Virus record (IMG/VR): IMGVR_UViG_3300049727_000095
Coordinates: 1-40,857 of that record
DNA: 40,857 bases
Strand: one strand, 5' to 3'
Source: a virus
The position numbers and the translations under genes are program-made. This document shows, piece by piece, positions 4,737-23,062 of this stretch. Every line of letters begins with the position of its first letter. The stretch's first letter is position 1. The notes beneath the pieces were generated by a model. The model ran no database searches. It was not told the DNA's origin and worked only from the letters and a program-made list of their open reading frames with translations.

Positions 4737-5936
4737 TTAAAGATGCTGTTCGAGAGCATCGTGAAACATTTTTATTTTATCTTTCCACTGCCAGTTGTCA
4801 TTAATATATTTTGCAGCAGACTTACCTTTTTCTTTAACCTCGTCTTGATGCTCATAAGCATATAACATCAATTCTTTTAAATGCTGAAGGTCAGGCTCAG
4901 CCCAGTCTCCGCATTCTTCCTTATAAACATGGTCTGTAAAATCTTTAGCTGGGGTCAATGAATATTTTATTGTCCATCCTATCTCATCTGTCATATATTC
5001 TTCTGGCCCCGACCACCCTGTAACAATTGCAGGGACTCCAGTTGATAATGCTTCAAGCGGAGTTAGCCCAAATCCCTCGCCTCTTGTTGGAAACACAAAA
5101 CAATCTATCTCCTTGAAGAATGTTTCCATCAGTTCTTCATGAGAGATGGGCATTAGCATTACTTTAATTCTGTCATCCTTAACCATAAACGGATAATACG
5201 GATTACTTGTTTTACAAATTAATCTAACATTCGGATAAAGATGCTTAGGAAATTGTTCCTGAAATGCTTGGACCAAAACATCAGTCCCTTTTCGAATACT
5301 TAATGCTCCCATCGTTCCAAATGTAAATGTCTCTCTGATTGGTCTTTCAATTACTTTAAATTTATCAGTATCAATTCCCCAATGTACAAGTTCGATAGGA
5401 ACAGTCACTCCGCTTGATTTGAATGCTTCAATATTCTGTTTGCATGGGACAAATAGAGCGTCAAACTTGTTTATTTTAGAAATCCAACTTTTTGGGATGC
5501 CTGTTGTCTCAAATGGGATTATTGCAATATTCTTTGCAAATGGGCTATTTGGCCATGAAGCCTTTGGCTGCTCATGCCAGACCATGCACTCAGATGGCAT
5601 TAGAGCATCTTTAGACATTTTGATGATGTTCCCATCATTTATATTAAACAGTCTTCCAGTTAAGGCAATCTTGTAGTCTAAACTGCTCTTTAAAAGATTA
5701 AAGCTGACATTTCCCCAACCAGAAACTTGGTCTATATCACTTGTAAAAGCGAATTTCTTTTCTTTTGAAAATAACTCAGCGTCATATGGGACTGGGTCTG
5801 TATGAAAGGTAATGTCAAATAGTTTCGAGAGACGAATCGCTATCGAAAATGGGACATCAATAATTTTCTTAGTGTCGTAGTATATGTTATCAAAGAATAT
5901 TGAGCTTGCTTTTTCATTGTTGATTATTATTTTCAT
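4737..5936 (-). CDS. GT-B glycosyltransferase, family GT4 type
   Basis: 399 residues, a full-length GT-B enzyme. The C-terminal half carries the GT4 hallmarks: FGTMGALSIRKGTDVLVQAF (about 207-226), then VFPTRGEGFGLTPLEALSTG (281-300) with the E-x7-E pair E287 and E295 that binds the nucleotide sugar, followed by VPAIVTGWSGPEEYM. These enzymes transfer a sugar from an activated donor with retention. The gene sits alone between the major capsid gene and the connector genes, away from the sugar cassette at 18.9-27 kb, and is flanked by an imperfect 17-base direct repeat. The acceptor (capsid protein, cell-surface glycan or DNA) cannot be told. Confidence 0.88.
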   Translation of the reverse strand: MKIIINNEKASSIFFDNIYYDTKKIIDVPFSIAIRLSKLFDITFHTDPVPYDAELFSKEKKFAFTSDIDQVSGWGNVSFNLLKSSLDYKIALTGRLFNINDGNIIKMSKDALMPSECMVWHEQPKASWPNSPFAKNIAIIPFETTGIPKSWISKINKFDALFVPCKQNIEAFKSSGVTVPIELVHWGIDTDKFKVIERPIRETFTFGTMGALSIRKGTDVLVQAFQEQFPKHLYPNVRLICKTSNPYYPFMVKDDRIKVMLMPISHEELMETFFKEIDCFVFPTRGEGFGLTPLEALSTGVPAIVTGWSGPEEYMTDEIGWTIKYSLTPAKDFTDHVYKEECGDWAEPDLQHLKELMLYAYEHQDEVKEKGKSAAKYINDNWQWKDKIKMFHDALEQHL

Positions 5937-7161: not shown

Positions 7162-8694
7162 TTATTCTTCGCGACTTGCTGAAGAAGAAAAGTTTGAATT
7201 GTAGACATCTTTAAATGTCTTTCCGGAATTGCCTTGGGACTTCTTAACTTCGTCTCCCATGACACTTGCTGTCAATCTGAATGTTTGGCCATCTTTTGTT
7301 CTCATTATTGGTGCTCCGAATAGCATTGACTTCTTGAAGCCTGGCTCTTTCATCATGCCTTGTAGTTCCTTTTGAACTTCAGGGTCGTTCTTAATCATAT
7401 CAACAAACATCTTTGCGAATCCAGGCGCTCTTTTTCCACTCTTTGAAAAGTTGCCTTCAAGTGTATCAAGAGACTTTGTAAGAGTATCAACAAAGGAATC
7501 TAAGTCTGATGTCTTAACTGACTTTGTTGTTTCATCTTCCTCTTCCTCCTTAGCAGCTTTCTCTTTAGTCTCTGTCTCATCTGATGACTTTGACATACTT
7601 TCAATTCTCTTGATGATGCTCTTCATTTTGACGTCGTAGTCAGATGCTTTAGCAGTTGCAGTCTCTTCTGTTTCTGTTTCATCTTTAGTCCCAGCAGCTT
7701 TTTCTTTTGTTTCAGTCTCAGTTTCAGCAGACTTTTCTTCCATGATGGTTGTTTCTTCATCATTCTTTTCTTTAGTCTCTGATGTCTTTGATAAACTTAG
7801 CACTGCTGATGTTAATCCTTCCAATGCTTTTGTAACCATAGACTTGAACTTTTCTTCAGTATCAGTTGCCTCTTTAGTATCAGCAGCTTTTTCCTTGGTC
7901 TCTGTTTCTTCAACAGCCTTCTCCTTAGTTTCAGTCTCTTCGACTGCTTTCTCTTTGGTTTCTGATGTTTCATCAGTCGCCTTTTTAACTTTCATGTCTT
8001 CCATCTTTTTCATATTTGTCTCTTCATTACTTTTATTAATATCGACTTTTTTCCAGGCATTATCTGGAACTGATTTAGCAAACGATTGCATATAATCAAA
8101 TACAGGGGTCTCAAATAAGAACTCTTTATAAATTGGTGAATCGACGAATCTATCTCCGCTTTCGCCATTTTCAATAATACTCTTTGATACTAACCATGCA
8201 TCATAATTTGCAGGTCTAGATGTCACAGAGACCTCATCTAAGGCCACATCATAGAATGTTTTAATGTATTTACCAGCTGCCTCCGAAAGCTCCTTGACTG
8301 CATGCTTTACTCTGCCGCCAACTGACAATCCTAATTTAGCGCCTGTCTTTAATGCCTTATATAGCATTGAAGCTCCAGGGTGGCTCTTGTTGAGACTTGC
8401 TTCTATCCAAAGCTGATTTCTCTCATCGACCCATGCCTTATTAACACTGCCAATTATTGCACTGTCTTCTTTTTGATGCTCTACTCGTAAAGGAACTGTT
8501 TGCTCGTTAATTACTGTGGCCATTGCTTGAAGAGAAGATTCAGACATACGTTCAGCATCATGGTCAATGTTTGTAGTTGATGCAACTCCTTTGATTGTCA
8601 TTTCATCTTCAGTTCCGCCCGGAATGGCTTTTTCTATATAAAATGAGAATGGAAAGTTTCCGTTTGCCTCAATTTTTATGTTTGTGTCTTTCAT
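7162..8694 (-). CDS. Prohead protease fused to a scaffold-like region
   Basis: 510 residues. Residues 1-170 are a HK97-type prohead protease: TIKGVASTTNIDHDAERM, then PLRVEHQ with the probable catalytic His73, LGLSVGGRV with the probable nucleophile Ser124, and LDEVSVTSRPAN (152-163), a hallmark of the family. Residues about 200-420 are very rich in Glu, Lys and Thr with repeated ETKEKA units and predicted helices, as expected for a scaffolding part. The last 80 residues (from GKRAPGFAKMFVDMIKND) form a more conserved-looking end that may bind the capsid protein. The fusion of protease and scaffold in one gene before the capsid gene is known in several phages. It cleaves scaffold and capsid arms during head maturation. 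Confidence 0.88.
   Translation of the reverse strand: MKDTNIKIEANGNFPFSFYIEKAIPGGTEDEMTIKGVASTTNIDHDAERMSESSLQAMATVINEQTVPLRVEHQKEDSAIIGSVNKAWVDERNQLWIEASLNKSHPGASMLYKALKTGAKLGLSVGGRVKHAVKELSEAAGKYIKTFYDVALDEVSVTSRPANYDAWLVSKSIIENGESGDRFVDSPIYKEFLFETPVFDYMQSFAKSVPDNAWKKVDINKSNEETNMKKMEDMKVKKATDETSETKEKAVEETETKEKAVEETETKEKAADTKEATDTEEKFKSMVTKALEGLTSAVLSLSKTSETKEKNDEETTIMEEKSAETETETKEKAAGTKDETETEETATAKASDYDVKMKSIIKRIESMSKSSDETETKEKAAKEEEEDETTKSVKTSDLDSFVDTLTKSLDTLEGNFSKSGKRAPGFAKMFVDMIKNDPEVQKELQGMMKEPGFKKSMLFGAPIMRTKDGQTFRLTASVMGDEVKKSQGNSGKTFKDVYNSNFSSSASREE
7660..7990 (-). repeat. Degenerate repeats coding E-T-K-E-K-A units in the scaffold region
   Basis: The protease-scaffold gene has multiple short units encoding variants of EETETKEKA. 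The three closest copies lie about 7870-7965. They suggest expansion by slippage or recombination of a charged helical segment. Confidence 0.6.
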
Positions 8695-8698
8695 ATAA

Positions 8699-9928
8699 TT
8701 ACATTATTGAGTTAACTATCATAGTTGCGCTCTGAACACTTAAATTAAATTGAACAATTAATCGTAGAATAATTCTCTGCCTATCCCAACCTGCTTTTTT
8801 TCTTTCAATCGCATCCTGTCTAGCATCTGTTGTCAAGTCTTTTGTTAACTCAGCCCATGCTTTTTTAAATGATTTTGTCATACTTTTCTCTCTAGCGTTA
8901 ATAATTGCCTGTTGGCGTTTCAATTGGATAGCTTTAATTTTACCTACTAGCCCACATTTTTCTTCTGTATCAGTAACCTCTTCAGCTTTATCAGCAATTT
9001 GGTCTAGGACTTTACCTGTCTGTTCGATGGCTCCTTTCATTATTTGCTTAAGCCCAGAAGTATTCCCATATTCAACATGCTCTATATGGTCATTTCTAAG
9101 TGCTAAAGAAACGTATCCCATCGCTTCAACACTTGATATATTTCTAAAATGTTGAATTATTTTACCATTAGAATCAATAGTTTTTACCCAAAAATTATTT
9201 TCTTTATTATTATTTGGACCAAAAGAAACTGAAATGTTTTTTGTAGTTTGAGATTTATTTCTTGGATTATCGTCACTACTTAAATTATAATCATCAACAC
9301 TATCATATACTTTATTGTTATAAATACCTCTTACCTTTCCTTTGTAATTATCATCTACATCTTGGACGCTAGGAATATTTGCTTTATTCATAGACTTATC
9401 TATTGCCCAATCACGAATTGCTACTCGCTCTTTAGTTGATAAGTCTTCACAGATGTACATTCTTCCCCCGCCTGCTATTGTTTGAGAATCTAGAACTTTA
9501 AATTTTTTTCCATTGCTGTCAATTATCTCATTATTTCTATGTAAAGGAAGCATTTTACTGTCTTTAGCCTTAGTCATATCATTACATTTACATATATTCT
9601 GACTTTTAACTGAAACAAAATCCTGCCCATCAAATCGAGTTATGTATATTCCACTTGGCAGACCACAGTTAGGGCAAAAACTCTTCGTTGTATCGCCTTC
9701 TAAGTCTTGTTCTGCTAAGTCTGATTTTGGAATTGGCCCCGCATAGGATGTATCAACAGATTTTTTTGCATTCATTTCTTTCAAATTAGCCTTATGACCT
9801 TCTTCCTCTTCAGCCATCTCTTCGAATTTGTCAGCCATGCCATGATACTTAGCAGCGCCATCAGACTCTTCCTGAATCATATCAGTCATTCCTTTTTTAA
9901 TCCAGAGCTGTTTAAAACGATTTATCAT
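8699..9928 (-). CDS. Head-associated multidomain protein: ferritin-like segment, capsid-arm motif, zinc-binding cysteines
   Basis: 409 residues with no known full-length family. Residues 18-50 look like one half of a ferritin-like helix pair: E-S-D-G-A-A-K-Y-H, then EEMAEEEEGHKANL with an E-E-x-x-H motif at 41-45. Residues 56-77 (KSVDTSYAGPIPKSDLAEQ then DLE) match the N-arm of the major capsid protein closely. Residues 85-115 carry C-x2-C and C-x-C (CPNCG, CKC), likely zinc-binding. Residues about 180-290 are AT-rich in DNA, Asn/Asp-rich and look inserted. The C-terminal 70 residues are basic and helical. K-S-M motifs occur at 178-180 and 348-350. Its place right before the protease gene suggests a capsid-interior or minor capsid role. 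Confidence 0.6.
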   Translation of the reverse strand: MINRFKQLWIKKGMTDMIQEESDGAAKYHGMADKFEEMAEEEEGHKANLKEMNAKKSVDTSYAGPIPKSDLAEQDLEGDTTKSFCPNCGLPSGIYITRFDGQDFVSVKSQNICKCNDMTKAKDSKMLPLHRNNEIIDSNGKKFKVLDSQTIAGGGRMYICEDLSTKERVAIRDWAIDKSMNKANIPSVQDVDDNYKGKVRGIYNNKVYDSVDDYNLSSDDNPRNKSQTTKNISVSFGPNNNKENNFWVKTIDSNGKIIQHFRNISSVEAMGYVSLALRNDHIEHVEYGNTSGLKQIMKGAIEQTGKVLDQIADKAEEVTDTEEKCGLVGKIKAIQLKRQQAIINAREKSMTKSFKKAWAELTKDLTTDARQDAIERKKAGWDRQRIILRLIVQFNLSVQSATMIVNSIM

Positions 9929-9960
9929 ATACTATAATTATACTAGTTTTTAATTTTCTT
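9929..9960 (-). promoter_or_regulatory. AT-rich leader shared with the portal gene leader
   Basis: The bases just before the 9928 start read ATTAAAAACTAGTATAATTA on the minus strand, almost the same as ATTAAAAATTAGTATAATTA before the portal start (16392-16425). A shorter form, AATTAGTATAATG, precedes the 17327 start. It may be a translation-enhancing leader or contain a TATAAT -10 element; no good -35 is visible. Confidence 0.35.
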
Positions 9961-9969
9961 TACCTTTCA

Positions 9970-10001
9970 GTCTCCTGCCTAGTCGAAAATAGGCAGAAAC
10001 T
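9970..10001 (-). terminator. Hairpin between 10007 gene and 9928 gene
   Basis: CTGCCTA (9975-9981) and TAGGCAG (9990-9996) form a 7-bp stem that extends outward through AGTCTC / AAACT with one bulge to about 12 bp. No T-run follows on either strand, so it may be an RNA-processing or stabilising stem and not a classic terminator. Confidence 0.35.
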
Positions 10002-10006
10002 AAAAA

Positions 10007-10192
10007 CTAAAGAGGCGCTACTTCTGGTGCAGCTTCAGGCGTAGGAGCATCAGCGACTACTTCAGGAGCAACTTCAGGAACAATTTCTGCTGCTTCTAAA
10101 TCTGCAAGCTGTTTTGCACAGCATTCTGTTTTCTTTGCAATTGCTTCAGCTTTTTCTTCTGGAGAGCTAAACGTTATTTTTACTGTTTTCAT
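10007..10192 (-). CDS. Small Pro/Ala/Glu-rich protein, unknown function
   Basis: 61 residues. The N-terminal half (MKTVKITFSSPEEKAEAIAK) looks like a small folded or helical part with a Cys-Cys pair (TECCAK). The C-terminal half is a low-complexity Glu/Pro/Ala/Val tail (EVAPEVVADAPTPEAAPEVA). It stands alone between the hairpin at 9970 and the membrane protein gene at 10235. No family is recognised. Confidence 0.5.
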   Translation of the reverse strand: MKTVKITFSSPEEKAEAIAKKTECCAKQLADLEAAEIVPEVAPEVVADAPTPEAAPEVAPL

Positions 10193-10234
10193 ATGAATTA
10201 TTGTACTTAATTAATAATTCGACCATTTATATAC

Positions 10235-10579
10235 TTATCTTTTAATCTCATAGACCCACATCAATAATGATGCCAAAGCAACAACTCCAGCAGCGAATGC
10301 ATACGCATATGTTATTCTTAGTCGTAAATTGTCGACAAACTTTTCAAGTGCAGTATGTATTTTTTCATGCTCTACTTTGCCAAGAAAATCATTCTCCATC
10401 GCCCGGATTCTAATTTCGTGGTCATCGATGGTTTTTTGAGTTCCATCTCTTAGTTGTTTGATGTCTTTTCTGACTTCACGAAAATTCAAGGTCGTGGATG
10501 TCGCAATCTGGACCAACAGCTCTCGGTCTGTCAGTTTTCCCACATCGATGTCTTTTGTTTCTGTAATTTCTTGGTCCAT
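10235..10579 (-). CDS. Coiled-coil protein with C-terminal membrane segment (XhlA/holin-associated type)
   Basis: 114 residues. Residues 18-85 are a long heptad-patterned helix (LTDRELLVQIATS, FREVRKDIKQLRDG, DDHEIRIRAMENDF). Residues about 89-110 (ITYAYAFAAGVVALASLLMW) form one membrane helix followed by a short basic tail. This layout resembles XhlA-like lysis helper proteins and small phage membrane anchors. The next gene also codes for a small membrane protein, so the two may act together in lysis or membrane attachment. No endolysin is seen in the window, so a lysis role is only inferred. Confidence 0.5.
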   Translation of the reverse strand: MDQEITETKDIDVGKLTDRELLVQIATSTTLNFREVRKDIKQLRDGTQKTIDDHEIRIRAMENDFLGKVEHEKIHTALEKFVDNLRLRITYAYAFAAGVVALASLLMWVYEIKR

Positions 10580-10613
10580 GCTTGTTATACTATTAATTGT
10601 ATCAAAACAATTA

Positions 10614-10796
10614 TTATTTTACTGGCGTTGTTTGCTTCTGAGAAGCGGCAATTTCTTGATTCAAGAAACCTACAACCTGTGTAAGGGTTGCATGGTCTTG
10701 GCTCACTACATTGCTTACTTGGATAAATTCATAAACGACTCCTACAGTAACCACTAAACAAACTCCTATCACTATTCCATATATAATTTTTTTCAT
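10614..10796 (-). CDS. Small single-pass membrane protein, possible lysis partner
   Basis: 60 residues with an N-terminal membrane segment (KIIYGIVIGVCLVVTVGVVY) and a polar C-terminal part outside or in the periplasm, ending QKQTTPVK. The same KQTTPVK string occurs near the C-terminus of the secreted protein at 23067-23912. It follows the coiled-coil membrane protein gene on the same strand. Size and layout fit a spanin- or holin-like accessory protein, but no family motif is seen. Confidence 0.45.
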   Translation of the reverse strand: MKKIIYGIVIGVCLVVTVGVVYEFIQVSNVVSQDHATLTQVVGFLNQEIAASQKQTTPVK

Positions 10797-10836
10797 TTTT
10801 TTTCGCTTAACTTAATAATAACTTCATTATACCATT

Positions 10837-11283
10837 TTAGTTAGTTGGTGCTACATCTGATGTAGGGTCTATCGGAGGTACAGGCTCTGGTATTGGTACT
10901 GCTTGTAATGAATCGACCTGTGCTGTCAAATCTGCTACTTGTGTATTCAATCCAGTGATTGTCGTTTCGTTATTTGTATTATCAGTACTATGTGCAGTCT
11001 GCTCGGTTGTGAGTGCTGTTTGTGCATCTGTGAGTTGTCCTGTGAGAGTTGTTATAGAAGCATTTGCAGTTTCTAATTCTGCTGTTAAAGTAGCGACATT
11101 TCCATTTGCAACCGATAATTCACTAGCTATTTTGTTTGATTCTTCTTGTGCATTTGTTAATGCAGTTAAGTCTTCCTTGAAAGTATCCTCAAAAATACTC
11201 AAAGCTAAATTCAAGGCGGTTGCTTCGTTTGAATTTGTTGCTATCGCTGTTGTTAAAATTTGTTGAGCTTGTGTAGGATTCAT
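10837..11283 (-). CDS. Coiled-coil structural protein, unknown function
   Basis: 148 residues. From about residue 45 to 130 it is a regular heptad coiled coil with Leu/Ile/Val at a/d positions and many Thr, Ala and Asn residues (VATLTAELETANASITTLTG, TDAQTALTTEQTA). The end is Pro-rich (PIPEPVPPIDPTSDVAPTN). It precedes the small membrane proteins and follows the fibre-like gene, so it may trimerise as a fibre accessory or virion spike stem. No catalytic motif is present. Confidence 0.5.
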   Translation of the reverse strand: MNPTQAQQILTTAIATNSNEATALNLALSIFEDTFKEDLTALTNAQEESNKIASELSVANGNVATLTAELETANASITTLTGQLTDAQTALTTEQTAHSTDNTNNETTITGLNTQVADLTAQVDSLQAVPIPEPVPPIDPTSDVAPTN

Positions 11284-11305
11284 TTTATTTTTGTTAATTT
11301 AATAA

Positions 11306-13237
11306 TTATGAGCCATTTGCTATTACATAATATGTTAATTTGGTACTCGACAAAGCACCTATATTTGTAATAGTAATGGCTGTATTTGAAACAGTGTAGC
11401 TAAAAACTAAACCTGCTTCCGAGACTACTGTTACAAAAGGTGTATTAGTATAAGCAGTTGCAAAAGTAATTACCGCACCAGTAGCTAAAGTTCCTTCGGT
11501 TATTTCTCCTGCTGTATCTGTTGAACCTGTCGTAATAGATGCTCCAGTTCCTGCACTTGTTAAAGTTGGAATAGTACCTAAAGTGCCTATATGACCACTT
11601 ACAGTTAGTTTACTTAATGGACTCGTCGTCCCGATACCGACGTTGCCGTTTACTATTAAGTTTGCATTATCTACTCTAACATCAGCAATACCGGGAATGC
11701 CTGTAGCAGAGGCACTTGTTGTAATAGTCAGTCTACTATTTTGAGCCCCACCATTTCCTTGAAATGTTTTGAATGTTATAGCATCAGACTTAGCACTCCC
11801 AGGATAATAATTTCCATTTATACTTGACAGACCAAATCCAACAGTCGTACCTAAACCAACATTGTTAGTTGAAAAAGTTCCTTGCACTGCAACATTTCCT
11901 CCATGGGTGACTCTAAATTCTTCTACTCCAGCATTAGTGTATACCAAATCTCCTGATGCGGAATCGCCAACCAAAAAAGTTTGGAACGAACCAGCCCTAA
12001 ACCATTGCAAGCCATCATTAAGCCCAGCTGAACCAGTAAGATAATTCCATTGAATTTGATTACCCTCACTAATTTGCATATTTCCAGCAAGGTCTAGTTT
12101 TTGTCCAGGTGTCGTCGTCCCGATACCGACGTTGCCGTTACCTAGAATCGTCATCTTTTCTGTCGGAGTATTGTCTATGCTTCCTGAACTTCCTGCAGTT
12201 GCGGTAAAGAAATGTAGAGCGGAAGTTCCTGTGCCTGTTGAAATTCCTGACTTCAAAGTCAAATCTCCACCCGCTAGATTGTTCGTACCAGCGATTGCTC
12301 CGCCTGAAGACAAGGATAACCCTTGTCCAGCAGTAGCAGCAGTGGTGTTTCGTTCCATCCAAATTGTATGTGCTGTGGTGCCTCCAAGAGAAAGAATGTT
12401 GGTCGGTGCCGTCGTCCCAATCCCGACATTGCCGTTATTTAATATCGTCATGGCGGTTGTTCCGCCAGAGTTTCCGACATTGAAAGTCAGGTTTGCATTA
12501 GTTCCGGTATTCCCGGAAGCGTTGTTGTTGCCTTCAAAAGTGAGAGTGCCGTTGGCTGAAGTAGAACCGATAGCTGTCTGGTTGCCGGAGACTCCGGTAA
12601 TCAAATTGTTTGCAATTGCATTTACGGTGCGAGTCAATCCATTTCCAAAAGTTAAAGGAAATTCATAGTTTGTACCACCTGTAAAATTTGTGGAACGGTA
12701 ATCACTAGCATAGTTGCTGTTTACTGCATTGTCGCCAGTGTTCGTGCCGGTTGAAGTTCCGGAGCCGGAAGGAGCTCCAACCATGGTGGCCGTGATTCCG
12801 GAAACTGTGCCGGTGAATGTTGGAGAAGCGAGAGTGGCATACGGAGCTAACGCGGATGAAACTAAATATCCCGAATCATTCGTGAAAGTAGAAACAGTTG
12901 TAGGGAAAGTTGCCAGCGATAAATTTCCTCGCAAGTATTGTGCAGTTGTGCCTGTAGTGATAGTGTTTTGTTTGGCATTAAGTGCTGTCTGTAAATCTGT
13001 TTGAGCTGAAAGTGTGCCGGTGATAGAACCCCAGGTGCCGCCATCAGTTCCAGCTTGCCAACTAGCAACTGCGTTTGAGCCTGCCCCAGTTGATGTTAAA
13101 AGATAACCAGAGGTTGGCGTTCCAGTCCCTAGCTGAGTCTGATAAAAAGGAAAGGCTGCAGCGCTAGCCGAAGAGATAAATGCGCCTATCCATAAAACTC
13201 CGAACGAAACTATTAAATATTTTATAAATTGCTTCAT
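11306..13237 (-). CDS. Secreted or virion fibre-like protein with GxVGIGTTxP repeats
   Basis: 643 residues. The N-terminus is a clear signal peptide (MKQFIKYLIVSFGVLWIGAF then ISSASA-A), unusual for a phage fibre. Residues about 40-180 have tail-fibre-like turns (GTLSAQTDLQTALNAKQNTI). Three copies of NGNVGIGTTxP (at DNA about 12420, 12125 and 11640) mark beta-solenoid type repeats seen in surface proteins and fibres. The C-terminal 90 residues form a different beta-rich domain (AYTNTPFVTVVSEAGLVFSY). The middle section (12130-13080) has clearly higher GC than its neighbours, suggesting mosaic acquisition. It could be a virion receptor-binding fibre or a protein put on the host surface. Confidence 0.6.
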   Translation of the reverse strand: MKQFIKYLIVSFGVLWIGAFISSASAAAFPFYQTQLGTGTPTSGYLLTSTGAGSNAVASWQAGTDGGTWGSITGTLSAQTDLQTALNAKQNTITTGTTAQYLRGNLSLATFPTTVSTFTNDSGYLVSSALAPYATLASPTFTGTVSGITATMVGAPSGSGTSTGTNTGDNAVNSNYASDYRSTNFTGGTNYEFPLTFGNGLTRTVNAIANNLITGVSGNQTAIGSTSANGTLTFEGNNNASGNTGTNANLTFNVGNSGGTTAMTILNNGNVGIGTTAPTNILSLGGTTAHTIWMERNTTAATAGQGLSLSSGGAIAGTNNLAGGDLTLKSGISTGTGTSALHFFTATAGSSGSIDNTPTEKMTILGNGNVGIGTTTPGQKLDLAGNMQISEGNQIQWNYLTGSAGLNDGLQWFRAGSFQTFLVGDSASGDLVYTNAGVEEFRVTHGGNVAVQGTFSTNNVGLGTTVGFGLSSINGNYYPGSAKSDAITFKTFQGNGGAQNSRLTITTSASATGIPGIADVRVDNANLIVNGNVGIGTTSPLSKLTVSGHIGTLGTIPTLTSAGTGASITTGSTDTAGEITEGTLATGAVITFATAYTNTPFVTVVSEAGLVFSYTVSNTAITITNIGALSSTKLTYYVIANGS

Positions 13238-13784: not shown

Positions 13785-16391
13785 TTATGCTTTAAAATAG
13801 ATTGAATATACTAATCCTCGACTGTCTTCTGAGAAAAACACTCCGCCAGAGCCACTTGGATGCTTATCAACTTGTTCTTGCAACGCTTTAACACTTTCAT
13901 TGAATTCATATCGATAACTTATAGGTTGATACCCAGTTGCTGTTAATGCTGCTAAGTCTTTTAATCTAAATAACTCTTTAACTGTTTCTTTTTTATGACT
14001 TGGAAACATTGCTCCAAACAAAACTGGTGTTTCTTGAAAAGTCTCGACTGGCTTAGTTGCTGCTGCAGCAATCTCTTTTGATATTTTGCTCCATAGTTTC
14101 TTCATCATGGACTTTTCTTTTGGCTGCTCTGAAGTCTTCTCTATAAAGAGTTTATACAGTTGGGGGATTTGAACTAAAAACTTTTGGATTGACTCACTTG
14201 TATCTTCCCATCTTTTAAAGTCTCCTTTAAACTGATAGTCAAATCCGAATGCTCGTTTATCTTTTGTGATGATATATTGGTCTACTCGTCTATCACCAAG
14301 AACTAACTCTTTTTCTATATTCCATAAATTAGCTAAATCAATAATTGCTTGTGTATAACTAGTTGGGTCTCGTTTCATATCGTCTCGAATCTGATTAGAG
14401 CCAACAGCAAATCCATCAATGTACTCTGATACCATATAGTATGGATATTTTCTAGAACCGCCAAACTTTGCCCTCCATTTTTCAGAATCATACTCACTAG
14501 TCATATTACAATACTTATCAAACTCAGTTGCAAGCATTGCTCCCATATTAGCAGTTATATCGCCATATGGCTGTTTAGAAACTGGCTTAACATTCAATCC
14601 TCGTTTAGCAAGGTCTGCTGTAATTGCTACTTCCAAGTCTTGAGAGATAAGATTAACTGCTACTGGCGGCTTATAGACTTGACCAACTCCAGTTAGAACG
14701 TTGCACCAAATGAATGGTTGCCCATACCCTCTATCGTCAAACCAAGCTTTAATTCCGTCAGGCAGATATACTGCTTTTGAAATACTTTTTTCTTTAATTG
14801 CAATTAATTCCTTCATATACTTGACTGCATCTGCTTCTTTCATAGACTTGCCATTTATGCTTACTTCTTTTCTTTTTGGATATCTAGTAGCTGTCCAGCC
14901 ATAACTTTCTATTGTATTTATTAAGTCGTCAATATTATCTTTTCTAAATTGACTTTTGCTATAAACTTTCTCTCCTGCGACAGTCGATTCTTCTTCAACT
15001 GATTCATGGTCATCAGTATGAATTACAGTATACCCATCTGACCCAAGTATCATAGGCTGGTCTGCCCATTCTTCATAAGGAAGGTCGCCATTCTTTTCTC
15101 GAGCTTCATTCAACGTCATTGTTCCATTCTTTAATTTAATATCTTGTATCTCAGTCGCTGTTTTAGGGTCTGTCGAGTCTATTGCTATCCAATCAAACTC
15201 TATATCAGCATAACCGAAGTCTTTCCAGATAATATCGTGGTTGATTATCTCTTTAATCAAGTGGAGAATGGAGCCATATCCTTTAGCTTCAGACAAATCC
15301 TTTTGAGTCTCGGAAACATTCTTAGAGCCAGTCGTATCTGTTAGACCAATATCTTCAGGAGACAACCCATAGGCAGCAGCGAGCAACTTAGATAACCAAG
15401 ACGTATACTCCATAAACTGCATATCTCGATTAGACAAGTCTTTTAAATTGTGCACTTTCATTTCTCCTCCGCCAGCTACGATTGCTGGCCTATGGAACTC
15501 CCCTTCTATTTGCTGGTAAATGTACTCTCGATACCTCTCCATGTCCCGCTGTGATAACGATTCTGCTAGTTGTAGGATTATAGGTGGAAATGCTCCAGTG
15601 TCAAAATAAGAGCCATTGTAGTTATCTGAATTTAGCAGGTTTGAAACAACTGATAGAACTCCTTCAATAGGTGATAATCCATATCCAAACGAGGCTATAG
15701 AGCCTTGTGGATGCATATGGAAGTATATAAAATCTTTCTTTGACCAAGCTGCAACGATGTCACCTGATTCTGGTCCGCCATACATTGAGTTATTAAAAAT
15801 TTGCAAATATGATACAGGAGGAGTCTTTCCATTTGGAAGAGGAACTTCAATCTCCTGATTGCCATATTCATCAAAAACTGGGCGAATTGTCGAAGCATCA
15901 ACTGTATACAGCTGAGCAAGCTTTCCATCTGGATAACGAGTCTTCTCAATAGCAACAGCATCTAATATTAAAAGGTCTTCAAGAGCTTTATCAAGAAACG
16001 AACGAGTGCTATCTTGTTCATTCGGCGTTTTAAGCAAGTCTGTAATCTCCTTGATTTGAACTGCATCAGCCTTTGCCATTGGGTCAATTGTTTTAATGAC
16101 CCATTTTGTTTTAGTTATTTTCTCCTTTAAAACATTAACGCAAATACGAGCAATTGGAACAGCATTAACTGCTCTACGTAAAACTTCAAATGAGATTTGA
16201 CCAGGCTTTAACAGCCCTTTCTTCAAAACGCCTAGATTTCTTTGTTTATCATTCTCAAAAACAAGTGCCCTACTATCAGCAGGATGAAGAGCTTTCTCAA
16301 AGAAACGAGTTACATCGTCAGGAATTCCGAGCTTTTCTGTTGCTGACAGTGTCGACGCAATAGTGTTCTCGGACTTTTTAATCTCTTCCAT
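13785..16391 (-). CDS. Portal protein fused to a C-terminal kinase-like domain
   Basis: 868 residues, about twice a normal portal. Residues about 50-450 are an HK97-type portal: VNAVPIARICVNVLKEKITK, then FGYGLSPIEGVLSVVSNLLN (235-254), the helix SQRDMERYREYIYQQIEGEF, LLAAAYGLSPEDIGL (336-350), and the late MTLNEAREKNGDLPYEEW. Residues about 540-755 look like a protein- or lipid-kinase fold: GVGQVYKPP (K574), DLEVAITADLAKRGL (E587), a hinge-like YYMVSEYIDG (651-660), a catalytic-loop-like VLGDRRVDQYII (D700, Q705) and FGFDYQF (D718) in the DFG place. K-S-I and K-S-M motifs flank this domain at 535-537 and 760-762. A basic helical and beta C-terminal part (from 763) follows. The portal forms the DNA entry ring; the kinase-like part is inferred from motif order. 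Confidence 0.85.
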   Translation of the reverse strand: MEEIKKSENTIASTLSATEKLGIPDDVTRFFEKALHPADSRALVFENDKQRNLGVLKKGLLKPGQISFEVLRRAVNAVPIARICVNVLKEKITKTKWVIKTIDPMAKADAVQIKEITDLLKTPNEQDSTRSFLDKALEDLLILDAVAIEKTRYPDGKLAQLYTVDASTIRPVFDEYGNQEIEVPLPNGKTPPVSYLQIFNNSMYGGPESGDIVAAWSKKDFIYFHMHPQGSIASFGYGLSPIEGVLSVVSNLLNSDNYNGSYFDTGAFPPIILQLAESLSQRDMERYREYIYQQIEGEFHRPAIVAGGGEMKVHNLKDLSNRDMQFMEYTSWLSKLLAAAYGLSPEDIGLTDTTGSKNVSETQKDLSEAKGYGSILHLIKEIINHDIIWKDFGYADIEFDWIAIDSTDPKTATEIQDIKLKNGTMTLNEAREKNGDLPYEEWADQPMILGSDGYTVIHTDDHESVEEESTVAGEKVYSKSQFRKDNIDDLINTIESYGWTATRYPKRKEVSINGKSMKEADAVKYMKELIAIKEKSISKAVYLPDGIKAWFDDRGYGQPFIWCNVLTGVGQVYKPPVAVNLISQDLEVAITADLAKRGLNVKPVSKQPYGDITANMGAMLATEFDKYCNMTSEYDSEKWRAKFGGSRKYPYYMVSEYIDGFAVGSNQIRDDMKRDPTSYTQAIIDLANLWNIEKELVLGDRRVDQYIITKDKRAFGFDYQFKGDFKRWEDTSESIQKFLVQIPQLYKLFIEKTSEQPKEKSMMKKLWSKISKEIAAAATKPVETFQETPVLFGAMFPSHKKETVKELFRLKDLAALTATGYQPISYRYEFNESVKALQEQVDKHPSGSGGVFFSEDSRGLVYSIYFKA

Positions 16392-20013: not shown

Positions 20014-21048
20014 TTATAATAACCATTTTGAATGTTCTAACGTCCACCCAACTGTCTTTCGTAAACTATCTTCAAATGTAACAGGATATTCGAATCCAGC
20101 AGCTTTAAGCTTATCTCCGTTTAAAGCATAACGAAGGTCGTGCCCAGGTCTGCTACTATGAAAATCGACCATCTCATATATTAACTCTGTTCCTAAACAG
20201 TCAGCAATCAATTTTGCCATCTCTAGATTAGAAGTCTCTACTTCTCCGACGATATTGTACTTTCCTTCTCCTGTGTCATTATCTCCTTTGCCATTAAGAG
20301 TCTTGCCATGCTCTAAGATAAATAATACTGCAGAACAGATATTCCTAGTATGCAAGTAATGGCGTGTTCCAGCGATGGTCTTAGTTGCATCTGAATGGAT
20401 GCTAACAGTCTCTCCAGCCTGGATTTTATTAATTAGCATCGGAACAAACTTCTCTGGTGTTTGACGCTCTCCGAAGATATTCATACAATGAGTAACGATG
20501 ATTGGAAGCCTATATGTATTTGCATATGAATCGCAAAGAAGCTCAGCCCCAGCTTTCGTTGCTGCATACGGATTGTTTGGATTGAATCTATCAAACTCTT
20601 TGAATGCCACTCCTTCTGGTGCTGGTCCAAATACTTCGTCTGTTGAGAAGTAAAGAAACTTTGGCAATCCTTTATCTGGGTCTTGGCAATACTTCCTAAA
20701 GAACTCCAAACAATTTGCAGTCCCAACTACATTATCCATAACGAAACTCATCGGGTCTATGATACTTCTATCGACATGGGAGCCAGCTGCTAAGTGGCAG
20801 AAGTAATCAAAGTCTCCTATTGACTTAACAAGCCATTCATTAAACTCCGCCTTTAAATCCCAAAACAGAAACTTAACTCGATGTTTCTCAGTTTCCCAAC
20901 AATCCATATCAGTCAAACGATTCGGATTGCCTGATGTATCAAGTCTGTCAATTGATATAATATCCCAAGTCGTATTTTTAAGTACGTGTTCTATGAGATG
21001 AGCCCCAACAAACCCTGCCCCGCCAGTGATTACTATTTTTTTACTCAT
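20014..21048 (-). CDS. NAD-dependent nucleotide-sugar dehydratase/epimerase (RmlB-like)
   Basis: 344 residues, an extended short-chain dehydrogenase. The NAD-binding loop is GGAGFVG (9-15). The active site has YFSTDEVFG (S135-T136-D137-E138) and NNPYAATKAG with catalytic Tyr161 and Lys165. SHVDRSI (about 90-96) and HCMNIFGERQTPEKFVPMLI are typical of dTDP-glucose 4,6-dehydratases, which remove water from a nucleotide sugar to give the 4-keto-6-deoxy form. The D-E pair after S-T points to a dehydratase. The start overlaps the nucleotidyltransferase stop by four bases, so the two are probably one pathway. The natural nucleotide (dTDP, GDP, CDP or UDP) is not known. Confidence 0.85.
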   Translation of the reverse strand: MSKKIVITGGAGFVGAHLIEHVLKNTTWDIISIDRLDTSGNPNRLTDMDCWETEKHRVKFLFWDLKAEFNEWLVKSIGDFDYFCHLAAGSHVDRSIIDPMSFVMDNVVGTANCLEFFRKYCQDPDKGLPKFLYFSTDEVFGPAPEGVAFKEFDRFNPNNPYAATKAGAELLCDSYANTYRLPIIVTHCMNIFGERQTPEKFVPMLINKIQAGETVSIHSDATKTIAGTRHYLHTRNICSAVLFILEHGKTLNGKGDNDTGEGKYNIVGEVETSNLEMAKLIADCLGTELIYEMVDFHSSRPGHDLRYALNGDKLKAAGFEYPVTFEDSLRKTVGWTLEHSKWLL

Positions 21049-21440
21049 GAATTTTTAATTCTTTCTCTTAACTCAGATGAAGAAAAGCTATGTTGTCGAC
21101 GATTATAATATATTTTAATAGGTAAATCCTTTCCTGTAAACTTTCTATCCAGATACTCCTCTCCAACGATACGAATATCAGGATGAAGTATCTGTAACAA
21201 GTTATATAAATCTCCTTCTGTTTCATACGGAATTATTTCATCAACATACTTACAAGCTTTCAATTGCAAATATCGTTCTGTGACAGATTGAATTGGCTTA
21301 TGCTTGTCAGGTCTATCTAGCTGTGGATTAACTTGAAGCCCAACTACAAGGTAGTCACAAACAGACTTGGCTTCTTCAAGCATAGCAATGTGGCCTGAGT
21401 GTAATAAGTCAAACGCACTCGCGGTAAATCCTTTACTCAT
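21045..21440 (-). CDS. Nucleotidyltransferase (cytidylyltransferase/TagD or RfaE type)
   Basis: 131 residues from MSKGFTASAFDLLHSGHIAM; an earlier ATG at 21458 gives six extra residues. The H-S-G-H motif (14-17) is the nucleotide-binding motif of the cytidylyltransferase superfamily. The late RRQHSFSSSELRERI corresponds to the conserved S-S-T-x-I/L-R end. Family members couple CTP or ATP to a sugar- or polyol-phosphate (for example glycerol-3-phosphate or heptose-1-phosphate). It sits between the HAD phosphatase and the dehydratase, forming a plausible sugar-activation set. Confidence 0.82.
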   Translation of the reverse strand: MSKGFTASAFDLLHSGHIAMLEEAKSVCDYLVVGLQVNPQLDRPDKHKPIQSVTERYLQLKACKYVDEIIPYETEGDLYNLLQILHPDIRIVGEEYLDRKFTGKDLPIKIYYNRRQHSFSSSELRERIKNS

Positions 21441-21585
21441 CATGATTTCCAAAATCAAATACTATTAAAAAACCAAAAAGTCCAAAAATAAACGAATTGC
21501 AATACTCGCATTGATGACAACCAATTTTAACTAAATCGACATTTCCATTCCCGTCTGTCCATTGTGATATAAGCGTTATTTGCAT
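21433..21585 (-). CDS. Small Cys-pair protein (50 aa), unknown
   Basis: A 50-residue frame from ATG 21585 to TAA 21433 reads MQITLISQWTDGNGNVDLVK, then IGCHQCEYCNSFIFGLFGFL and IVFDFGNHDE. It has a C-x2-C-x2-C cluster followed by a hydrophobic segment. It overlaps the upstream gene by 10 and the downstream gene by 8 bases, like its neighbours. No family is recognised. Confidence 0.45.
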   Translation of the reverse strand: MQITLISQWTDGNGNVDLVKIGCHQCEYCNSFIFGLFGFLIVFDFGNHDE

Positions 21586-22280
21586 AAATCATTAACTATT
21601 TTTAAAGTGTCAAGTGGCCCAGTGGTGGATATACAACTCGGGATAACTTCTATTACAGATTCGTCGTTGCCTCCGGGATATAAAGCATCACCAATGTAAA
21701 CACAATCCTCTGGGTACCAATGCTTCTTAAGCAACCATCTCTGTAAATTCTTTCCTTTTGTTCCGTTAATAATTGTGTAGTCTATCGAGGTTGTGCCACC
21801 GACCCTTGCACAAAGCTCAGCATCTATAAAGGGAGTTGTTTTTAACATATGATTTCTTTTCTCTCCTTTTGGGTCAAATTCTCTCTTAAGGTCTTTATCT
21901 GCATGATGGCCTACTAAGCTAAGAGTCAACTGACATCCTCTATCTTGTATTAAATCATTCTCGTCTTCAGCTTGTCTAAAAAGATATCCATAATCAGCTC
22001 GTAATGCTTGAATATGCTTGTTGATTCTTTCCTTTTGCTCTTTGGTTAACTTATTCTTCCAAAAACGAGTGTAGTTACCACTTTCAGCAAGAAGAAAGAT
22101 TCCATCATCTAAATATGGAAGCTGTTGTCTCATTTGAGAGATTAACGCTCCTGAGATAATTGTTACAGTTGCACCCATCATAGATAAATCATTTAGCATA
22201 TCAATTATCTCTTCAGTCGCTTCTGTTCGACTATCAGTAAGAGTTCCATCCATATCAAAAAGAAAGTGGTGATATTTCAT
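21576..22280 (-). CDS. HAD-family phosphatase, phosphomannomutase-like (HAD-IIB)
   Basis: 234 residues. The HAD motif I is FDMDGTLTDSR (8-18, nucleophile D9, acid D11). TIISGA corresponds to motif II. The later DRGCQLTLSLVGHHADKD and VYIGDALYPGGNDESVIEVI (motif IV with GDA...GGND) match eukaryotic-type phosphomannomutase and Cof-like hydrolases. In the cassette it probably makes or removes a sugar 1-phosphate before nucleotide transfer. Whether it is a true mutase or a phosphatase cannot be settled. Confidence 0.8.
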   Translation of the reverse strand: MKYHHFLFDMDGTLTDSRTEATEEIIDMLNDLSMMGATVTIISGALISQMRQQLPYLDDGIFLLAESGNYTRFWKNKLTKEQKERINKHIQALRADYGYLFRQAEDENDLIQDRGCQLTLSLVGHHADKDLKREFDPKGEKRNHMLKTTPFIDAELCARVGGTTSIDYTIINGTKGKNLQRWLLKKHWYPEDCVYIGDALYPGGNDESVIEVIPSCISTTGPLDTLKIVNDLCK

Positions 22281-23062
22281 TTATTATATTTAGTCTTATA
22301 TACTTCAAATCCTGGTAAGCCACCCCACATTTTAGCATATTCAGCTTTATTTCTTTCATACGCAGGGCCAGGAACGACAGGATTGTTTACACCATACGCT
22401 TCGTTTTGAGTAGCGCTCCCATAATGGTAAAATAATGCAGATGGCAAACAAATCGCTTTCATTCCTGAAAGTGTCATTTTATAATGATACGAATTGTCTT
22501 CGTAGTAGGCGGGATAAAACTCTTCATCAGCTTCTCCAACTTTATTCCAACATGATTTATTAATCATAAACCCTGAAAAGTCAGGATGCTCAAATTCTGC
22601 TACTTCATTATTATTCTTTACTGGCAAATTAAATATCTCCCGAGGGTCCCGAATCTCATTTTTTATATTCAAACATGTTACCATACCCAATTCTTTAACG
22701 ATTGTGTCTGAGTGTATTGGAGGGTTACTCAGTTCATCCTCAAATCGTTCTATCATCCTGTCGATTGCCATTGGATGCAATATCACATCGTTATTTAATA
22801 CAAGCACGTAATCAGCAGCACTATCGAAAGCAAGATTAATGCCAAAGTTCCAGCTTCTAGCACAAGACCAACATTCATTATTGCGGTGATAAATAAAGTT
22901 ATTATTAACCAACTTAGCAGCTTCAATTTGTGTTTCATCTGAACTATTGTTATCTATTAAAACGAGAGTAGCATCATGGACTGTCTTTATCGATTCTATA
23001 CATTGTTTTGTATATTTGCTCCAAAGATTAATACATGGAATAACGATAAAGACTTTTTTCAT
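22277..23062 (-). CDS. Glycosyltransferase family 2
   Basis: 261 residues. It starts with a GT2 strand-loop (KVFIVIPCINLWSKYTKQCI) and has TLVLIDNNSSDET (uracil-binding loop). Further on, RSWNFGINLAFDSAADYVLV then LNNDVIL give the D-x-D-like N-N-D metal site. PAYYEDNSYHYKMTLSG is the catalytic-base region (ED). This is close to the rhamnosyltransferase-type GT2 group. It overlaps the HAD gene by four bases and belongs to the sugar cassette. Confidence 0.88.
   Translation of the reverse strand: MKKVFIVIPCINLWSKYTKQCIESIKTVHDATLVLIDNNSSDETQIEAAKLVNNNFIYHRNNECWSCARSWNFGINLAFDSAADYVLVLNNDVILHPMAIDRMIERFEDELSNPPIHSDTIVKELGMVTCLNIKNEIRDPREIFNLPVKNNNEVAEFEHPDFSGFMINKSCWNKVGEADEEFYPAYYEDNSYHYKMTLSGMKAICLPSALFYHYGSATQNEAYGVNNPVVPGPAYERNKAEYAKMWGGLPGFEVYKTKYNK

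Follow-up and report, generated by a model that had tools for sequence, protein, structure and literature searches.

The window analysed here is the whole stretch of 40,857 nucleotides of the IMG/VR virus record IMGVR_UViG_3300049727_000095, in the late head region of which a single gene encodes a phage portal protein extended by a domain of predicted kinase fold. The open reading frame (ORF) runs uninterrupted on the minus strand from 16391 down to 13785. A preliminary description, made from the letters of the sequence, had placed an 868-residue portal at 13785-16391, which was correct; the strand, absent from it, is minus. The features of the ORF are as follows:

13785..16391 (stop codon included), minus strand: portal-kinase fusion ORF, 868 amino acids, ATG start, one open frame
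15090..16151, minus strand: portal core, residues 81-434 (Phage_portal PF04860, E 3.2e-34)
14787..15014, minus strand: charged linker, about residues 460-535 (from alignment)
14121..14786 (about residues 536-757), minus strand: predicted kinase-fold domain, about residues 535-760, ~225 residues (from AlphaFold, Foldseek and conservation)
14670..14672, minus strand: codon of K574, candidate beta3 lysine (VYKPP), invariant in 26/26, at a predicted strand end
14631..14633, minus strand: codon of E587, candidate alphaC glutamate, invariant in 26/26, in a predicted helix
14277..14297, minus strand: catalytic-loop-like GDRRVDQ, residues 699-705, with G, D, R and R in 26/26
14238..14240, minus strand: codon of D718, equivalent of the DFG aspartate (FDYQF), invariant in 26/26
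13788..14057, minus strand: C-terminal mini-domain, about residues 779-868, ~90 residues (from alignment; no family match)

Residues 81-434 belong to the portal family, as the PF04860 profile was matched with 119 bits against a cut-off of 39.1. Moreover, PHROG portal families matched the ORF with E-values up to 5e-50 (phrog_2662, E 5.4e-50), and so did the solved portal 8q7d of the PDB (E 1.6e-17). Residues 535-868 gave no significant match in Pfam or PHROGs. It should be added that a prohead-protease-like gene is present in the same genome, with a weak match.

The charged linker contains an insertion of ~54 residues (about residues 481-534; about 14790-14951 of the window, minus strand), which among the portals aligned was seen in that of the window only and is missing even from the closest relative, L001, 80% identical to it. 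The mini-domain follows the pattern PVMFG...GGI...D..G.KY.VYVK and occurs on portals with or without the kinase; it was also present in loci L007, L009, L011, L013, L024, L033, L035, L036, L047, L051, L059 and L062. The ORF of the window joins a portal and a predicted enzyme domain on one polypeptide, and in the divergent relatives L022, L023, L038 and L040 the portal, the kinase and MuF share one polypeptide, the MuF matches being below the curated cut-off. An internal start that would yield a free kinase was not found as a conserved feature among the relatives compared.

Predicted fold and active-site residues

As judged from structural models, residues 535-760 almost certainly adopt a kinase fold. 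AlphaFold, run template-free with 23 sequences, returned this segment with pLDDT 92.9 and pTM 0.87, and residues 530-868, likewise without templates, with pLDDT 78.7, the stretch after the kinase domain being poorly ordered. The order of elements in the model is that of kinases: beta strands, beta3 ending at K574, alphaC with E587, a further strand and a hinge-like segment come first. They are followed by one long helix and the GDRRxxQ loop, after which a beta hairpin leads to D718 and a few short helices. In the predicted secondary structure D700 stands directly before the hairpin and D718 directly after it, as in kinases.

Foldseek comparison of the kinase-only model with the PDB pointed in the same direction, since all 50 of the 50 matches listed were kinases (46 PI3K chains and 4 protein kinases), the best of those listed being PI3K-delta with E 1.6e-5. 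The listed matches had probabilities of 0.97-1.00 and TM-scores by query length of 0.33-0.49, which are modest values, and the similarity to known kinases is therefore remote. With the longer model nearly all PDB matches listed were kinases too, and in the viral structure library protein kinases made up the majority of matches; two proteins of haloarchaeal tailed viruses, HSTV-2 gp16 and HHTV-1 gp13, were matched as well. The preliminary description had proposed a C-terminal kinase-like domain on the portal, suggested structure prediction and a structure search as the check and stated that another fold would speak against it; the high-confidence model of two-lobed, protein kinase-like fold, the 50 listed kinases and the invariant motif residues bear the proposal out.

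The same holds for the motifs that it named, VYK (K574), E587, SEYIDG, D700, Q705 and FDY (D718), all of which were found as stated, the hinge-like segment being S655-EYIDG-660. K574, E587, D700, R701, R702 and D718 are invariant in 26/26 distinct homologues, and since they remain unchanged down to 37% identity, the motif goes beyond chance. Further invariant positions in the 26 sequences include D553, G555, P559, F560, G570, V579, G699, Q720 and F721. In an alignment of 23 sequences about 34 of 226 columns were invariant, and the chance that four preselected positions are all invariant is, by a crude estimate, about 5e-4. By sequence and predicted secondary-structure placement, K574, E587, D700 and D718 would correspond to the beta3 lysine, the alphaC glutamate, the catalytic aspartate and the metal aspartate. 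The closeness of these residues, which the preliminary description also expected, was judged from their predicted secondary-structure positions, and these are kinase-like.

The catalytic loop departs from that of canonical kinases by Gln in place of Asn and by Arg in place of the His of DRH. The first of these departures had been noted before and stood (position 705 is Q in 25 of the 26 sequences and H in one), but that account was incomplete, as the preceding residue is always acidic or its amide (D17/N9 at position 704). With one of these two residues always in front of position 705, an Asn-like metal ligand may lie one place earlier than is canonical. It should also be added that dN/dS of the kinase was 0.056 for L033-L035, the sole pair with unsaturated kinase dS, a value that speaks for constraint.

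Distribution and history of the fusion

The same portal-kinase build was found in 25 other distinct IMG/VR sequences (26 in total, duplicates removed) with identity down to 37%; judged from these sequences, the fusion is a family trait and not peculiar to the phage of the window. Searches of GTDB species genomes and of plasmids returned no relative of the kinase domain, and those of public phage records only matches at chance level (E 4 or more). Among the ORFs of all viral loci, every match of the kinase profile lay inside a portal ORF. Furthermore, when 2.9 million IMG/VR contigs were scanned with a strict motif (GGN-GAY-MGN-MGN...GAY-TWY-CAR-TTY), 26 contigs were identified, all of them portal fusions already known; relatives with a looser motif may exist outside portals.

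In the tree of portal cores the kinase was present in every sampled deep branch and missing from one supported clade, consisting of L047, L051, L057, L059, L061 and L063; L056, also with no kinase, was left out of the losses, as its portal runs off the contig edge. According to this distribution, read from sequence, the fusion arose before the group diversified and was clearly lost once, and hence is old and retained. In the kinase-less clade a long linker leads to the C-terminal mini-domain in all members but L057, so a portal can survive the loss of its kinase; and with one clade devoid of it, the domain is not essential for portal function.

Two of the relatives, L009 and L021, share ~5 kb of near-identical DNA (about 8000-13100), their portal cores being 83% identical, and the shared block begins at the portal-kinase junction. 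This suggests recombination at the linker, an assembly artefact being less likely. A swap specific to the kinase domain between these two was considered and rejected, because the identical block of ~5 kb extends beyond the kinase.

Family placement and comparison with known systems

At the sequence level the kinase domain gave no match above cut-off in profile searches of Pfam, PHROGs, NCBIfam and PDB. It resembles the fold of PI3_PI4_kinase (PF00454) without being classed as a member: 16 members of the window's family gave no Pfam match, and the loop is DRRx[DN]Q, not DRHxxN. HipA_C (PF07804) was not matched in the record of the window, while four control genomes matched it, and hhalign of the kinase domain against Escherichia coli HipA, taken as a single sequence, was insignificant. 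A Bud32 kinase model was matched by two members in a single scan (E 0.0018), other members giving 0.04-0.05 over partial ranges, and this identity was not relied on. We infer a place on the PI3/4K-HipA-like, atypical side of the kinases, since PI3K chains ranked at the top and the spacing between the two aspartates, 18 residues, is that of HSTV-2 gp16.

The latter protein and its relatives from Mincapvirus haloviruses are among the closest parallels in kind, as they carry a PI3/4K-like domain at the C terminus of a protein of the head/neck gene region. HSTV-2 gp16, a structural neighbour of the window's domain in BFVD, has a beta3 'FKP', a DRHxxN loop and the same 18 residues from catalytic to metal aspartate; against PF00454 it gave E 1.5e-5, slightly below the cut-off, and some records of these haloviral proteins are annotated as phosphatidylinositol kinase. 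It differs from the window's protein, however, in that its carrier is a neck-position protein and not a portal, its loop is the canonical DRHYGN and no sequence homology is detectable, profile comparison with gp16 as a single sequence being insignificant. There are also haloviruses with the N-terminal part of gp16 alone, the kinase missing. HHTV-1 gp13 (L043:9436-12735), the other structural neighbour, is a protein of 1100 amino acids that adjoins a gpF-like gene; it has kinase-like DIHGGN...D and two HExxH-type metallopeptidase-like motifs, and is possibly a multidomain effector.

Enzymes of polyvalent-protein type fused to portal or MuF, namely PBECR, 2H and InPase domains (Iyer et al. 2017, PMC5512222), resemble the present case in that the enzyme sits on a portal and is thought to be packaged, but the portal fusions named there are not kinases; MuF toxins are described as well (PMC5576092). 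The kinases of polyvalent proteins are kinase-like, as is the present domain, and phage-packaged, as would be the present domain; they lack the C-terminal subdomain and keep the active-site His, in a loop with an insert (PMC5512222). The domain of the window, compared with them by description, is set apart by its DRR loop, by helices after D718 in the model and by the lack of a Pfam match. In 'Gratiaviridae', phages of Bacteroidetes, a gene of HipA-like kinase lies between those of portal and major head protein (PMC8008677); likewise compared by description, it is a separate gene with no portal fusion, and superinfection immunity was suggested as its role (PMC8008677). The DAC16 phage, with a head protein resembling that of the window, had no detectable related kinase within the 28 kb examined. 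Full-text searches of open-access literature turned up no phage portal described as carrying a kinase, in agreement with the earlier statement that enzyme fusions on portals are known and a kinase-like one is not.

Proposed role and genomic setting

The basis for a functional proposal is a single polypeptide, a fold predicted with high confidence, an invariant motif and a fusion that is old and retained. Taken as a whole, our preferred explanation, held with moderate confidence, is an atypical PI3K/PI4K-HipA-like kinase that would face the lumen from the portal and be packaged as an effector delivered at infection. The altered loop residues, the modest TM-scores, the missing family-level match and the clade that does well with no such domain weigh against it. 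Every subunit of the dodecameric portal would carry the domain via the flexible charged linker, with the beta3 'KP' lysine, the alphaC Glu, the DRRx[DN]Q catalytic loop and the metal ligand D718 as putative parts of the active site. Judged from conserved residues and the model, the portal-anchored domain is probably catalytically active, and would bind ATP-Mg and transfer phosphate. The portal C-terminal crown faces the capsid lumen in SPP1-type portals, and domains following the portal C terminus, up to 12 of them, would by analogy therefore lie in the lumen of the head.

The 12-mer portal itself is not injected, and delivery consequently requires release of the domain, which might be freed or partly released, perhaps in connection with the prohead-protease-like gene. 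Once released, the kinase would reach the host at infection and modify proteins there, in line with what was proposed for MuF- and portal-fused enzymes. The portal of SPP1 binds the MuF protein gp7 and directs it to the procapsid interior, and delivery to the host was proposed for toxins fused to gp7-like proteins (PMC6316719). That the main role is delivery into the host is a tentative suggestion. The idea of the preliminary description, that the domain could modify host or virion proteins or be injected, is plausible. Evenly poised, in our judgement, is the broader proposition that the DRRx[DN]Q proteins form an atypical kinase family confined to portals, with up to 12 active copies per virion, which modifies the host at entry or couples ATP-dependent signalling to packaging.

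An active portal-tethered kinase might instead work undelivered in the producing cell, phosphorylating scaffold, major head protein, terminase or host factors and regulating packaging; our second choice of mechanism is likewise that it acts on head proteins of the phage while the particle is assembled. That the kinase is always covalently joined to the portal would suit a local substrate at the vertex, and the gene is located in the late head region, but sister phages devoid of the kinase manage packaging with the same core, and we regard this reading as unlikely. Still less likely is a pseudokinase, or a kinase-fold enzyme with other chemistry (a nucleotide sensor, AMP or UMP transfer), that would act on the portal allosterically or as a scaffold. 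AMPylators of SelO type are a precedent for a kinase fold with other chemistry, the loop is non-canonical with Gln at the Asn position, and invariant DDRG, QF and other residues outside the classical motif suggest chemistry specific to the family; unlike in typical pseudokinases, however, none of the 26 sequences deviates at the Lys, the Glu or the two Asp that a working kinase has. Chance motif matches within a structural part that extends the portal crown, to which the absence of a family-level match and the moderate TM-scores might point, are highly improbable given the template-free model (pLDDT 92.9), kinases at all 50 listed PDB matches with probabilities of 0.97-1.00, motif residues invariant and correctly placed in predicted secondary structure, and a kinase domain separable from the portal.

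Portals are usually regarded as passive gates of fixed fold, and the few reported enzyme fusions that we found included no kinases. The invariant kinase-type residues on ~26 related phage portals, together with the model, suggest a protein-modifying enzyme kept at the DNA gate. A kinase-type active site that stayed invariant on the portal through deep divergence would mean that the packaging vertex bears an enzyme whose copy number is fixed. Kinases would gain a family whose catalytic loop is unusual, the virion would possibly carry an immediate-early host-modifying effector, and a testable way of placing cargo in capsids would be at hand. The proposal also gives a first functional label to an otherwise unannotated domain of uncultivated phages.

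As to the host, Shine-Dalgarno-like sequences are rare in the window (3 of the 42 gene starts examined), the best isolate matches of the major head protein were Bacillus and Bacteroides phages, and portal matches included a Chryseobacterium phage; these observations hint at a Bacteroidota-like host. The GC content of the window is 36%. Adjacent genes at 20014-23062 (minus strand) were read as sugar-nucleotide epimerase, nucleotidyltransferase, HAD-like phosphatase and family 2 glycosyltransferase, and a second glycosyltransferase-like gene (4737-5936) lies among the head genes.
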